Shown here in pieces: positions 5,700 to 29,474 of a DNA stretch of 40,682 nt. The translations under genes were made by a program, and so were the position numbers. The notes beneath the pieces were generated by a model that ran no database searches, was not told the origin of the DNA, and saw only the letters and a program-made list of their open reading frames with translations. How positions within the stretch are numbered: position 1 is the stretch's first letter; each line of letters starts with the position of its first letter. The stretch comes from Thermoflexales bacterium (GTDB taxonomy: Bacteria > Chloroflexota > Anaerolineae > J036 > Brachytrichaceae): NCBI GenBank assembly GCA_025056965.1, contig JANWVF010000092.1, forward strand, positions 1-40,682, given 5' to 3'.

Positions 5700-6563
5700 A
5701 TGAAGATCACGAAAGCCGTCATTACTGCTGCTGGTCGGCATCAGCGCGACCTGCCGTTGCAGACGCTGATTGACCGCGATGGCATTCAGAAGTCCGCGCT
5801 ACAGATCATCATCGAGGAGATCATCACTGCCGGCATTCACGACATCTGCGTCGTCATCCATCCGGGCGATGCAGAGGCTTACGCCGCGGCCGTGGGCGCA
5901 CATGCCCACCGGCTGACGTTCGTCGAGCAGCACGAGCCGCGCGGCTATGGCTACGCCGTGCTTTGCGCGCGAGAGTTCGTCGGCGGGGCGCCGTTTCTGC
6001 ACCTCGTGGGCGACCACTTGTATGTGAGCGATGACGCCGAGGGGATTGCTTGTGCCCAGCAAGTCGTGCGTGTCGCAGAGGCTCACGCTTGTAGCGTCTC
6101 GGCCGTACAGGCCACCCGCGAGTCGCTTCTGCCGAACTACGGCGCGGTGGGTGGCAAGCGCTTGCCTAACCGGCCCCGCCTCTACCAAATAGATCATGTG
6201 CTCGAAAAGCCGACGCCGACCGAGGCAGAACAGACGCTGCTTGTGCCTGGGCTGCGCGCCGGCTACTATCTGTGCTTCTTCGGCATCCATGTGCTCACCC
6301 CTGCGGTCATCGAGCTGCTGGCCGAGCAGGCTGCCACAAACGCAGACACAATGACGCTCTCGGACGCGCTGGCGCGGCTGGCGCACCGCGAACGCTACTT
6401 GGCCTACGAAGTGATCGGTCGCCGATACGACATCGGCGTGCGCTATGGCCTGCTGAACGCGCAGATCGCGCTTGCGTTGGCCGGGAGAGACCGTGCCGAG
6501 GTGTTGGCGCAGCTCGTCGAGCTGCTTGCGACAGGGGCTGCAACTGCGCATCCTCACGCCTGA
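5700..6563 (+). CDS. Divergent GalU-like sugar-phosphate nucleotidyltransferase
   Basis: A 287-residue protein with the nucleotidyltransferase fold of glucose-1-phosphate uridylyl/thymidylyltransferases: VITAAG start, [15 protein letters not shown] helix, [28 protein letters not shown] (the metal-binding Asp of the usual GD motif) and [12 protein letters not shown] near the C-terminus. The NTP-binding loop, GxGTRxxP in typical GalU, reads GRHQRDLP here: the first Gly, the Arg and the Pro are kept, the second Gly and the Thr are not. The nucleotide preference therefore cannot be assumed. The gene ends 14 nt before the kinase-pyrophosphorylase fusion, so the pair is probably one operon for nucleotide-sugar formation. 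ATG at 5700 is chosen because upstream codons run through the divergent promoter region. Confidence 0.75.
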
Positions 6564-6577
6564 GGCTGAAACGACCT

Positions 6578-9500
6578 ATGACCCATCTCGTCGAAATCAT
6601 CACTACCAGCGATCCGCACCTGCGCAACCGCTCGCTGGACGCATTCGCGCGCCAGGCCGACATGGGTACGCTGCTCGAAGAATGCGCGGCCTTGGAGGAC
6701 TTTCGCAAACGCAGCGGCAACCTCTACGAGCGCGTGCGCGCGCTCTTCTTCCTCTACGCGATCTATCGCTTCCATCTGCCGGCTAAGCCCGAGATGCCGA
6801 AGCGCGGATTGATTCCCTTCGAGGGGTACGAACATCTGCTGAGCCGTCGGTTCGAGGAGGCCATCGCTGCCTTTCAGCGGGCGTGGCGAGCGCACGGGCC
6901 GAGTGACGCGCTGGCCAGCGCGCTAGCAGAGGCGTATCACCGACTCGGCTTTCAAACCCTGGCCGACCAGGTGCGCCGCAGCGTGCGCACCGTGCGCGGC
7001 AACCAGTGGATGTTCCGCATCGGCCACCCCGCCGATCATCCCTTGCGCATCCGGCGCGAGCTCTTGGGCGCGAAAGCCGACGCAGGCGCAGGACAGGACG
7101 GCTTGTCGCGCATCTCCGGCGGCGTTATCCTGCGCGAGCGCACGCCGGTGCGCATGGATCTCTCGCACAGCGCGTGGAGCGACATCTTCTTTCTCGGCAT
7201 GGACTTTCCCGAAGGCGCGCGCGTGCTGAACGTCTCGATTGACCTGGCCGTGCGCGGACGAGATGCCGCGCCGCGCCCACCGGTCGAGGCTTACCTGCGC
7301 GTCATTGATGAGCCGGTGCTGCGGCTGACCAGCGTAGATTTAGGCGCGACCGCCGACTTGACGCACCTGCGCGATGTGTTCGACTTCGCGCGCGACTATC
7401 TGGGCTTGCTCAAGGCAGCCATCATCGCATCCGGCATCGTGCCGCCGGGGATGGAAGGTGCCGATCAACCGCTGAGCGAGCTGCTCGCCCGGCTTGTAGC
7501 TCCGGGCTATGGCCTCGAGCTGGTCAGCAACGTGAACGACATCCCGAAAGGCTCGCGTTTGGCCGTCTCGACGAGTTTGCTCGCCTGTCTGATTGCTTGT
7601 TGTATGCGGGCAACCGGCCAAGCCAGATCGCTCAGCGGCCCGTTGGCCGAGCATGAGCGCCGGCTGGTCGCGGCACGGGCTATCCTCGGCGAATGGTTGG
7701 CTGGCAGCGGCGGTGGCTGGCAGGACAGTGGCGGCGTATGGCCCGGGATGAAGCTGATCTACGGTGTGTTGGCCGAAGAAGGCGACCCGGAATACGGCAT
7801 CAGTCGCGGACGCCTGTTGCCCAATCACAAGATCCTCGACGAGGCCGACGCCGGCGAGGCGGTACGACAAACGCTGCAAGATGCGCTGATCCTCGTCCAC
7901 GGCGGCATGGCGCAGAACGTAGGGCCGATCCTGGAGATGGTCACCGAGAAGTATCTGCTGCGCAGCGAGGCCGAATGGGCCGGGCGCAAGGCCGCCATGC
8001 AAGTGCTCGATGACATCTTGGCTGCGTTGCGCAGCGCCGACCCCAGGCACGCGGTTCGGGAGATTGGCCGGCTCACGACCTACAACTTCTTCGGTCCGCT
8101 GCAGACGATCATCCCCTGGGCCAGCAACCTATACACCGAGATGCTGATCGAGCGGGCTAAGCAAGCGTTTGGCGGAGACTTCTGGGGCTTTTGGATGCTC
8201 GGCGGCATGAGCGGTGGCGGGATGGGCTTCATCGTCGCGCCGGAGATCGCCCAGCAGGCCAAGGCACGGCTGCACGAGATCATGCTCGACGTCAAGCGCG
8301 AATTGCAGTATGCCCTACCCTTCGCGATGGATCCGGTCGTTTACGACTTCGCCATCAATCCCGTAGGCACGCGCGCCGATTTGCTGTGCGGCGAAGAGGC
8401 GCTGATGCCTGCGGGCTACTATGCACTCCATGCGCCTCGGCTGGTTAAGCTTGACTCGGGGGCGCTCACGCGCATGCGGCGCGCCGACCTTGACCGCTTT
8501 GCGAATGCGACGCGCAGCCGGCCTGAGTTCGCCGGCATGACTAAGGTGCTATTCGATCGGCTGCTCCCGCAGCTGGATCACGCAGCGGGATCAAGGGACG
8601 CAGGACGTTCGCTTGAAGAGCTGCTGAGCGCATTCGGCTTCGACCGGGCGATGCACGAGCAGATCCGGGCCGACCTCAGAAGCGGTCGCATCGGGCTGGC
8701 CCAGAATCGCCTGCCGGCCAACGTGCAAATCGAAGATGTGTCGGCTTGCTCCCCGACTTCCGACCCCTCTAGGCCGCTTGTAGATGCGACCGACCGCGCA
8801 CAAATGGGCGAGTTCGAGCGCATCGGTGCGGAAGCGCTGCGCGATGGGCGCGTGGCGGTGATGACGTTGGCAGCCGGCGCCGGCAGCCGCTGGACGCAGG
8901 GAGCAGGCGTCGTCAAGGCGCTGCATCCCTTCGCCAAGCTGGGTGGCCGACATCGCACGTTCATCGAGGTGCATCTGGCCAAAAGTCAGCGCGTGGCGTG
9001 CCGACATGACGCGCGTCTGCCGCACATCATCACGACCAGCTACTTGACCCACGACCCGATTGCATCATTCCTCGTGCGTCAACCCTCATTGCCCGAGGTG
9101 CCGGTTCATCTATCCGAAGGACGCAGCGTCGGCCTGCGCATGATCCCCATGGCGCGTGATCTGCGCTTCCAGTGGGAGGAGACGCCGCAGCAACTGCTCG
9201 ATGAACAGGCGCAGAAGATGCGCGAGAGCCTCCATGCTGCCCTGATCGCTTGGGCACAGCGATCTGGTGAGGGAAGCGACTACACCGACAACACACCGAT
9301 GCAATGCCTGCACCCGGTCGGCCACTGGTTCGAGTTCCCCAACTTGCTGCGCAACGGCGCCTTGCGCGCCATGTTAGACGCCTACCCTAACCTACGCTAC
9401 CTGATGCTGCACAACATAGATACGCTGGGCGCCGATGTAGATCCCGCCATGCTCGGCTTGCACATTGCCCGTGGCGCATGCTTGACCTTCGAGGTGATCA

Positions 9501-9976
9501 CCCGGCGCGTGGAAGATCGGGGCGGTGGGTTGGCTCGCGTGAACGGACAACCACGGCTGGTGGAGGGTCTGGCTATGCCACGCGAAGAGGCCGAGTTCGC
9601 CCTCTCATACTACAACAGCGCCACCTGTTGGATAGATATTGACCAATTACTGGGCGTTTTCGGCCTCTCCCGCGCCGACTTGGATGACGGAGACAAGGTG
9701 AACAAAGCGATCCGTGCGATGAGCGCGCGAATGCCCACATACATCACGCTCAAGGATGTGAAGAAGCGCTGGGGGCACGGACAAGAGGATGTCTTCCCGG
9801 TGACGCAATGGGAGAAGCTGTGGGGCGATATGACCGCTTTGCCTGATGTGAAGGTCGGATTCGCTGTTGTGCCCCGGCTGCGTGGTCAGCAGCTCAAGGA
9901 TCAAGCGCAGCTCGACGGCTGGCTGCGCGATGGATCGGCCGGCTATGTCGAGCGCTTGTGTGGGTGGCGTGATTGA
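6578..9976 (+). CDS. Fusion of fucokinase-like GHMP kinase and UDP-sugar pyrophosphorylase-like domain
   Basis: A 1132-residue protein with two recognisable catalytic modules. Around residues 185-420 are GHMP-kinase elements of the L-fucokinase/FKP type: [14 protein letters not shown] with RVLNVSIDL (motif 1), [15 protein letters not shown] (ATP loop) and [13 protein letters not shown]. Residues about 755-1132 resemble eukaryote-type UGP/UDP-sugar pyrophosphorylases: [20 protein letters not shown] as the nucleotide loop, [37 protein letters not shown] and [16 protein letters not shown]. Residues 1-180 are helical and TPR-like in part ([14 protein letters not shown]). The inferred activity is sugar to sugar-1-phosphate to NDP-sugar; the sugar is unknown. 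The ATG at 6578 follows the upstream stop by 14 nt. The order (kinase first, pyrophosphorylase last) is opposite to that of Bacteroides FKP. Confidence 0.8.
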
Positions 9977-27709: not shown

Positions 27710-29413
27710 TTAGTATACAAGCCGACCGACGATCGCACCGATGAAACCAAGGATCATCAATCCACCGAACCAGCTGTGCAGGTTGGCCGTAGCGCGCAGC
27801 ACACGGTTAAGTTTGCGCGGCTCATCGGTCGCAAACGCGCGCTGCACCAGTGAGACGCCCATCGGCAAGGCCAACAACGGCAATAGCGCCAACAGCGGCG
27901 CATAGCCGATCAACACGAGGGCGGTCAAGACGATGAAACTCCCGCTCACCAGCACGAGGTACTCCCACTTGCTGGCCTGGCGGCCGAGGATATTAGCCAA
28001 GGTGCGCTTGTTCTTGGCCAGATCCCCTTCCAGATCGCGCATGTTGTTGGCGTGCAGGATCGCGGCGACGAGAAAGCCGATGGGCAACGACAGCAGCACA
28101 ACGTGCAGCGGCGCAGCCTGCGCTTGGACGTAATAGCTGCCGATGACCATCACCGGCCCCATAAAGATAAATACCACGATCTCACCCAGGCCGATGTAAG
28201 CGAAGGCTTTCGGGCCAGCGGTGTAGAACCAGCCAGCCAGCACGCTCAGGACGCCCAGGAGCAAGATGAATATGCCGCGTTCGGCTACCAGATACAGGCC
28301 AATGAGGGAGCCGACCCCGAAACAAACCAGTGCGCCGATGAACACTTGGCGCGGCGTGAGCATGCCCTCTTGAAGCGCGCGGTTGGGGCCAAGCGACTCC
28401 GGTGTATCGGCGCCTTTCTTCCAGTCGTAGTAGTCATTGGCCAGGTTCGTGCCGGCGTGAATCAACACCGAGCCGACTAGGGCAAGCACGAACAACCACA
28501 GGTCGAAGTGACCATCGTAGGCCGCCAGCACGGCGCCCAGCGTGACCGGCACGACGCTGGCAGTGAAGCTGAACGGTCGCGTCGCCATCCACCACACGCG
28601 CACGAAGCGACGCACGCGCGGCTCATCGTGAGGAATCGGCGCGGTGCGAGAAGCCCGATTGCTCTCGGCGACGCGCCACGGCACGAGCTGTCGCTCGAGC
28701 TCACCCATCAGCCAGTTCGCCGCGAAGCCCAGCAAGGCCACCACGATCAGCGCGGCGAAGATCGTCGGAATGTCGTACACCTGATAGGCTGCCCAGATCA
28801 TCGCACCTAGGCCACCTCGGGGCAGCAGCAGCTCAGTGCCGACGATCACGGTGAGCGCGAAGCCGAGGCCGAGGTTGACACCGGTGAGGATGCTCGGCAA
28901 CGCGCCGGGAAGCGCCACCGTCCAAATTAAATCCCACTGGCTCGCGCCGTGATTGCGCGCGATGTCAAAGTAGCGCGCATCCACATTGCGCACGCCGGCC
29001 ACAGTATTGAGCACCACCAAGAAGAACACCGAGATCACTACGATGGCGTACTTGGCCGGCTCGCCGATGCCCAGCAATAGCACCACCATTGGCACTAGGG
29101 CGATCTTGGGGATAGGATATATCGCAGCGACCAGGGGGGTGAAGAGGGCGCGGGCGATTCCGCTGACGCCCATGATCACGCCAAGCAAGATAGCCGGCAC
29201 GGTCGCCAGGACGAAGCCCACGGCCACACGGCGCAGGGTAATCGCTGTGTTAGTGAGCAGCGTGCCATCCTGCAGCAGGACAACGAGCCGAGCGAAAATC
29301 TCGCTCGGCATGGAGAAGAAGCGCACGTCGAGCGCGCCGAGGCGCGCCAGCACCTCCCACAGCACCAGCAGCGCCAACGGCGATACCAACGTTAGCCAGC
29401 GTTCGCGCAGCAT
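27710..29413 (-). CDS. Fusion: ABC transporter permease (SsuC/TauC-like) with MenA-type UbiA prenyltransferase
   Basis: A 567-residue membrane protein with two complete modules in one frame. Residues about 1-255 are a six-helix ABC permease of the nitrate/sulfonate/taurine type, with the EAA-loop region DIARNHGASQWDLIWTVALP. Residues about 275-567 are a UbiA-superfamily prenyltransferase close to 1,4-dihydroxy-2-naphthoate polyprenyltransferase (MenA): first Asp motif NLANDYYDWKKGADTPE, second NNMRDLEGDLAKNKRTLA. A charged linker (VAESNRASRTAPIPHDEPRVR) joins them, and no stop or frameshift is seen. No ABC ATPase or substrate-binding protein is adjacent. ATG at 29413; GTG at 29422 is possible. 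It lies about 60 nt after the aldehyde dehydrogenase. Confidence 0.82.
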   Translation of the reverse strand: MLRERWLTLVSPLALLVLWEVLARLGALDVRFFSMPSEIFARLVVLLQDGTLLTNTAITLRRVAVGFVLATVPAILLGVIMGVSGIARALFTPLVAAIYPIPKIALVPMVVLLLGIGEPAKYAIVVISVFFLVVLNTVAGVRNVDARYFDIARNHGASQWDLIWTVALPGALPSILTGVNLGLGFALTVIVGTELLLPRGGLGAMIWAAYQVYDIPTIFAALIVVALLGFAANWLMGELERQLVPWRVAESNRASRTAPIPHDEPRVRRFVRVWWMATRPFSFTASVVPVTLGAVLAAYDGHFDLWLFVLALVGSVLIHAGTNLANDYYDWKKGADTPESLGPNRALQEGMLTPRQVFIGALVCFGVGSLIGLYLVAERGIFILLLGVLSVLAGWFYTAGPKAFAYIGLGEIVVFIFMGPVMVIGSYYVQAQAAPLHVVLLSLPIGFLVAAILHANNMRDLEGDLAKNKRTLANILGRQASKWEYLVLVSGSFIVLTALVLIGYAPLLALLPLLALPMGVSLVQRAFATDEPRKLNRVLRATANLHSWFGGLMILGFIGAIVGRLVY

Positions 29414-29474
29414 ATTCGACACACTCTGACGAGCGATTACGATAGCCGACGCAGATAAGGCTGAGCTGAACGGG

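Follow-up and report, generated by a model that had tools for sequence, protein, structure and literature searches.

A permease-MenA fusion in Chloroflexota as candidate membrane subunit of an importer for the menaquinone precursor DHNA

A gene of a Thermoflexales bacterium (Chloroflexota) joins the permease of an ABC importer to the prenyltransferase MenA in one reading frame. It lies in a stretch of 40,682 nucleotides (contig JANWVF010000092.1, assembly GCA_025056965.1), which is referred to as a whole as the window. The fusion is real, old, and conserved. Its product is probably the membrane subunit of an ABC importer that takes up 1,4-dihydroxy-2-naphthoate (DHNA) or a naphthoate very close to it, covalently joined to the enzyme that would use this cargo by attaching an isoprenoid tail. 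We infer the substrate from the fused enzyme and from the menaquinone genes missing in the genomes that carry the fusion, and the exact cargo is the least certain part of this reading.

The fusion gene occupies positions 27710 to 29422 of the reverse strand as an uninterrupted frame that was identified as an open frame and by Pfam and NCBIfam. It encodes 570 amino acids from a GTG at 29422 or 567 from an ATG at 29413 and has its stop at 27710. Counted from the ATG, residues 1 to 246 (28676 to 29413, reverse strand, like all further features of the gene) constitute a NitT/TauT-type permease half with a terminal, invariant Pro245-Trp246, as delimited by Pfam, homologue alignment, and Foldseek. 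Pfam BPD_transp_1 covered residues 77 to 245 at near full length (83 bits versus a cut-off of 26). The EAA/coupling loop, which in ABC importer permeases is the expected contact with the ATPase, spans residues 146 to 173 (28895 to 28978), and its key residues are invariant in the alignment; this half thus has the domain and the loop of a NitT/TauT importer permease. Its closest solved relatives by Foldseek and sequence are CmpB and NrtB, the permeases of cyanobacterial bicarbonate and nitrate transporters. A charged linker (residues 247 to 273; 28595 to 28675) follows, which is conserved in neither length nor sequence according to alignment, AlphaFold, and dN/dS. The remaining residues 274 to 567 (27713 to 28594) form a MenA-type UbiA prenyltransferase by Pfam, NCBIfam, and Foldseek. 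Pfam UbiA matched residues 291 to 542 at near full length (151 bits versus a cut-off of 34), and the menA model TIGR00751 scored above its cut-off (184.4 versus 102.15 bits); the narrower MenA model PRK06080.1-3 was missed slightly (254 versus 264). Both Asp-rich motifs are intact and were invariant in an alignment of 21 fused homologues: the first, N323..ND(327)YYD(330)WKKGAD(336), lies at 28406 to 28447, and the second, NNMRD(460)LEGD(464)..KRTLA, at 27995 to 28048, with the invariance there referring to the catalytic residues. UBIAD1 is the closest solved relative of this half. Pfam, TIGR00751, and the alignment therefore bear out the initial annotation, which had described a complete SsuC/TauC-type permease and a complete UbiA enzyme with both Asp-rich motifs in one frame. 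AlphaFold predicted two helical domains and a disordered linker (mean pLDDT, 80); with a pTM of 0.52, the relative placement of the domains is uninformative. The MenA half is predicted to prenylate DHNA, which is indirectly supported by genomes that have no strong MenA other than the fused one.

The same architecture was found in 27 distinct Chloroflexota genomes of several families, at 45 to 91% identity. Eight other species of the window's genus (Candidatus Roseilinea) have full-length fusions with 82 to 91% identity and no internal stops, and their genomes include G006, in a single contig, and G008, in 5 contigs. Caldilineaceae, Herpetosiphonaceae, Roseiflexaceae, and others carry the fusion at 45 to 69% identity. 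Two fusions from records titled Thermoflexus and Singulisphaera branched inside the Roseiflexaceae group, and these titles were treated as doubtful. In all fusions, the permease ends with Pro-Trp, the variable linker follows, and MenA starts with WW-x-A-x-R-x-x-S. Both halves are under strong purifying selection (dN/dS within the genus of ~0.07 to 0.10 for the permease and 0.05 to 0.11 for MenA) and the linker is not (0.5 to 0.8). The initial annotation had suggested checking whether the two-domain order recurs and whether the linker is conserved; the order does recur, including in the single-contig genome, and the linker varies in length and sequence. An assembly error or a missed stop was ruled out by the stop-free fusions of other species, including the 1- and 5-contig genomes. 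The idea of a recent, tolerated gene joining, also raised in the initial annotation, had to be abandoned in light of the phylum-wide spread, the low dN/dS of both halves (~0.05 to 0.11), and the fact that many genomes have the fusion as their sole strong MenA.

Phylogenies of both halves were used to place unfused relatives. In the MenA tree, the fused halves formed one group (SH-aLRT, 93) with one nested stand-alone member, and this type of MenA constitutes its own clade, separate from the canonical Chloroflexota MenA that adjoins MenG. The nested member (L161, G206:C2) belongs to a genome that has MenB and MenD, and it seems to have shed the permease half where DHNA synthesis is possible; it is the one clear case of fission, which is otherwise nearly absent among relatives of the fusion. 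In the permease tree, the fusion halves grouped with full support, and a split permease of G304 fell inside this group. G304 encodes binding protein, ATPase, permease, and MenA as four unfused genes in this order and lacks MenB and MenD. Its permease ends with Pro-Trp and a few further residues before a TGA that overlaps the menA ATG (ATGA). A frame change at such an overlap would yield the fusion, which shows how a fusion of this kind can arise. For the initial annotation, separate genes with a stop near the linker in close relatives would have been evidence against a genuine fusion; only the distant G304 has this arrangement, and there it suggests the route to the fusion, not an artefact. 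The placement of G304 itself is conflicting, as it lies outside the fused clade by the MenA tree (ancestral split) and inside by the permease tree (later fission).

A binding-protein gene adjoins MenA in G153, which also lacks MenB and MenD. Distant TauABC-type genes (27 to 36% identity) adjoin a canonical MenA in two further genomes (L100, G053:C1:1965000-1979000; L099, G054:C158), the former locus also having MenG beside MenA; both genomes are without MenB, MenD, and MqnA/D. This arrangement possibly represents an independent recruitment of a DHNA importer. Since the linkages in G304, G153, G053, and G054 all occur in genomes lacking MenB and MenD, the connection of TauABC-type importers with MenA probably arose more than once in MenB-less Chloroflexota. 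A third MenA lineage (L101, L102, and L113 in G024, G015, and G020), with ~47% identity to the fused half, follows genes for an alpha/beta hydrolase and a weakly glyoxalase-like protein; G015 and G020 have neither MenB, MenD, nor the fusion.

MenB and MenD are needed to make DHNA, the known substrate of MenA, with MenB producing DHNA-CoA. We scored MenB as present when TIGR01929 exceeded its cut-off. In a first set, none of 12 fusion genomes had MenB, and five relatives that lack the fusion did. The extended set, in which two genomes reached under two handles each were counted once, gave MenB in just one of the 27 fusion genomes, compared with 20 of the 33 genomes without the fusion (Fisher P of ~2e-6, a guide only, as it is uncorrected for kinship and the 33 genomes are non-random). 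MenD tracked MenB almost exactly, and 26 of the 27 fusion genomes, including that of the window, lack both. The sole exception, G400, has MenB, MenD, and two MenAs. Sister contrasts agreed in genus g2 (G009 versus G016 and G021) and in families f1, f50 (G266 and G405 versus G150, G421, G082, and G109), and f86 (G198 and G431 versus G389). MenB is also missing from thirteen genomes that do not carry the fusion, so its loss has other solutions besides the importer. The futalosine pathway was rejected as an alternative source, since a scan of 12 fusion genomes for MqnA/D yielded nothing but a fragment at the edge of a contig in G004. This MqnA/MqnD-family fragment (G004:C166:6-467) was the only such match in 22 genomes and is possibly contamination.

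A second strong MenA was missing in 12 of the 21 fusion genomes searched (at most a weak UbiA match), including the single-contig G006. The window's genome keeps a stand-alone MenA overlapping MenG, so that the fused MenA is an addition there; two other UbiA proteins of this genome obtained no NCBIfam assignment at an E value of 1e-25. Judged by MenB and MenD and, in 12 genomes, by MqnA/D, many fusion-bearing Chloroflexota have apparently lost the genes for DHNA synthesis.

The remaining importer subunits are encoded next to the fusion in distant relatives. At 18 loci outside the window's genus, the genes for binding protein, ATPase, and fusion follow each other in one operon with tight spacing or small overlaps. 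An Rfam scan upstream of the operons revealed no riboswitch or other element, only a tRNA. One locus (L105, G037:C19) has two tandem binding-protein genes before ATPase and fusion, and in Caldilineaceae-like loci (L049, at 7870 to 9132, as well as L048 and L051), a DUF362 protein is kept directly downstream of the fusion. In G009, the fusion has the ATPase gene as its neighbor, and the binding-protein gene lies on a different contig. The fusion stands alone in the window's genus and at L047. Thus, the remark of the initial annotation that no ATPase or binding protein is beside the gene holds within the window but not as a general feature, and the orphan ATPase it suspected elsewhere was located on contig C159 together with a binding protein. 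The window's genome has four NMT1-type binding proteins, three of them beside a permease; the gene of the fourth (C159:19265-20311) overlaps the ATPase gene and has no permease nearby. This protein shares 40 to 69% identity with the operon binding proteins. All 12 fusion genomes examined had an orthologue of it, and the 10 relatives lacking the fusion had none. A pair without a permease and a permease without an ATPase therefore most likely form one split importer. Walker A and signature motifs were found in the cognate ATPase, which is encoded in the operon in distant members; its probable counterpart in the window's genome is the one on C159.

The binding protein is an NMT1/SsuA-type lipoprotein, as in NitT/TauT importers. 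The predicted structure of an operon orthologue (pLDDT, 86) matched SsuA, TauA, ThiY-type, PqqT, and MqnD folds in Foldseek. By sequence, the binding protein scored far below the curated cut-offs for SsuA-type and taurine binding proteins (93.7 versus 163.5 bits for TIGR01728 and 61.4 versus 304 for TIGR01729), and by this measure the system would not be TauABC or SsuABC proper. To judge from the modeled structure, the fold would be one whose known ligands include small anions and at least one aromatic quinone acid (PQQ), and it does not by itself assign the ligand.

As the fused enzyme is MenA and MenB and MenD are absent, the best candidate for the cargo is DHNA, the substrate of MenA. MenB makes DHNA-CoA; therefore, import that replaces MenB must lie at or beyond DHNA, and o-succinylbenzoate was considered an unlikely cargo since MenB is absent. 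We propose that the SsuA/TauA-fold lipoprotein would capture the precursor released by neighboring microbes and that a TauB-type ATPase would drive two permease halves. The cargo would emerge on the cytosolic side beside the fused MenA, which would prenylate it and trap it in the membrane, and methylation by MenG would then give menaquinone. In the window's genus, the fusion would assemble with an ATPase and a binding protein encoded elsewhere in the genome, and channeling between permease and MenA may bring a benefit. The suggestion of the initial annotation that uptake of an aromatic or acidic precursor is coupled to its prenylation has thereby gained strong indirect support from the fusion genomes without MenB and MenD and has become specific. 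More tentatively, the importer might hand its cargo directly to the fused MenA (vectorial prenylation), making uptake and the committed step one machine and the first identified DHNA transporter; we know of no such group-translocation-like principle described for ABC importers. Several observations count against DHNA import: the stand-alone MenA retained in addition to the fused one in the window's genome, the presence of MenB and MenD in G400 despite the fusion, the MenB-less genomes that have no fusion, the feeding by DHNA of cultured auxotrophs with no known transporter, and the distance of the ATPase and binding-protein genes from the fusion in the window's genus.

UBIAD1 prenylates menadione-type substrates, and its relationship to the MenA half in sequence and fold could indicate that the importer carries another naphthoquinone-type compound (menadione, 1,4-naphthoquinone, or ACNQ) as a direct substrate of the fused enzyme. 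Cultured auxotrophs can be fed with several naphthoquinones (PMC10746273, PMC5738691). We nevertheless consider this unlikely, because the MenA half has the MenA motifs and exceeds the curated menA cut-off. NitT/TauT binding proteins usually bind small anions, and DHNA, with its carboxylate, matches this preference better than a quinone without charge does. It is also improbable, slightly more so, that the cargo is a sulfonate or other anion unrelated to MenA, that the fusion sets only the place or amount of MenA, and that the missing MenB and MenD are compensated for otherwise. SsuA and TauA are indeed the nearest named families of the binding protein, though far under the cut-offs, and closely related permeases occur without an adjoining MenA, two of them (G182 and G441) in MenB-bearing genomes. 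However, an unrelated cargo agrees poorly with the strict co-occurrence of fusion and binding protein, the absence of MenB and MenD from 26 of 27 fusion genomes, and the repeated linkage of importers to MenA where MenB is missing. It is highly improbable that the fusion is neutral, or an artefact of assembly or annotation, with no functional coupling: adjacent coupled genes like those of G304 can fuse by a single frame change and the linker is variable, but the fusion was kept across families and is present in complete genomes, with purifying selection on both halves and almost no fission.

The permease, ATPase, and binding protein are recognizable by sequence and fold as members of the NitT/TauT importer family (TauABC, SsuABC, NrtABCD, and CmpABCD). 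Here, in contrast, the permease is fused to a biosynthetic enzyme, which to our knowledge is the case in no known member of this family, and the predicted cargo is a naphthoate. The fused half resembles MenA (TIGR00751) and UBIAD1 in score and invariant catalytic motifs but is carried on the C terminus of a transporter permease. PqqT, the pyrroloquinoline quinone binding protein, shares the fold of our binding protein, and this fold can thus bind an aromatic quinone acid; its ligand is different, and identity is ~18 to 19%.

That auxotrophs retaining only menA and menG are cross-fed with DHNA is established for other bacteria (PMC9704088, PMC5738691). In such DHNA-dependent organisms (Porphyromonas pasteri, PMC9704088; gut bacteria, PMC5738691), the early pathway is lost as in the fusion genomes, so the precursor must come from outside; DHNA feeds cultured auxotrophs that have no known transporter, whereas here a candidate for a dedicated importer has a genetic tie to MenA. 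According to a 2017 paper, no transporter for either menaquinone or DHNA had been described (PMC5738691), and a 2023 study on Lactiplantibacillus plantarum still reckons with uptake pathways that are yet to be identified (PMC10746273). Our literature search, with most subscription journals outside its range, turned up neither a DHNA transporter described since then nor any mention of a permease-MenA fusion. As far as this search went, the component families are known and their combination and predicted function are new. This makes the locus a strong candidate for the transporter, so far undescribed, by which bacteria scavenge vitamin K (menaquinone) precursors from neighbors, and through the fusion an ABC importer would be physically connected to the enzyme using its cargo. 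It names a specific, testable transporter and predicts auxotrophy for menaquinone precursors in mostly uncultured Chloroflexota; we suggest adding DHNA to culture media for those bearing the fusion. Elsewhere in the window, a frame of 1234 amino acids (6272 to 9976) had as its sole Pfam match a UDPGP nucleotidyltransferase stretch near the C terminus.
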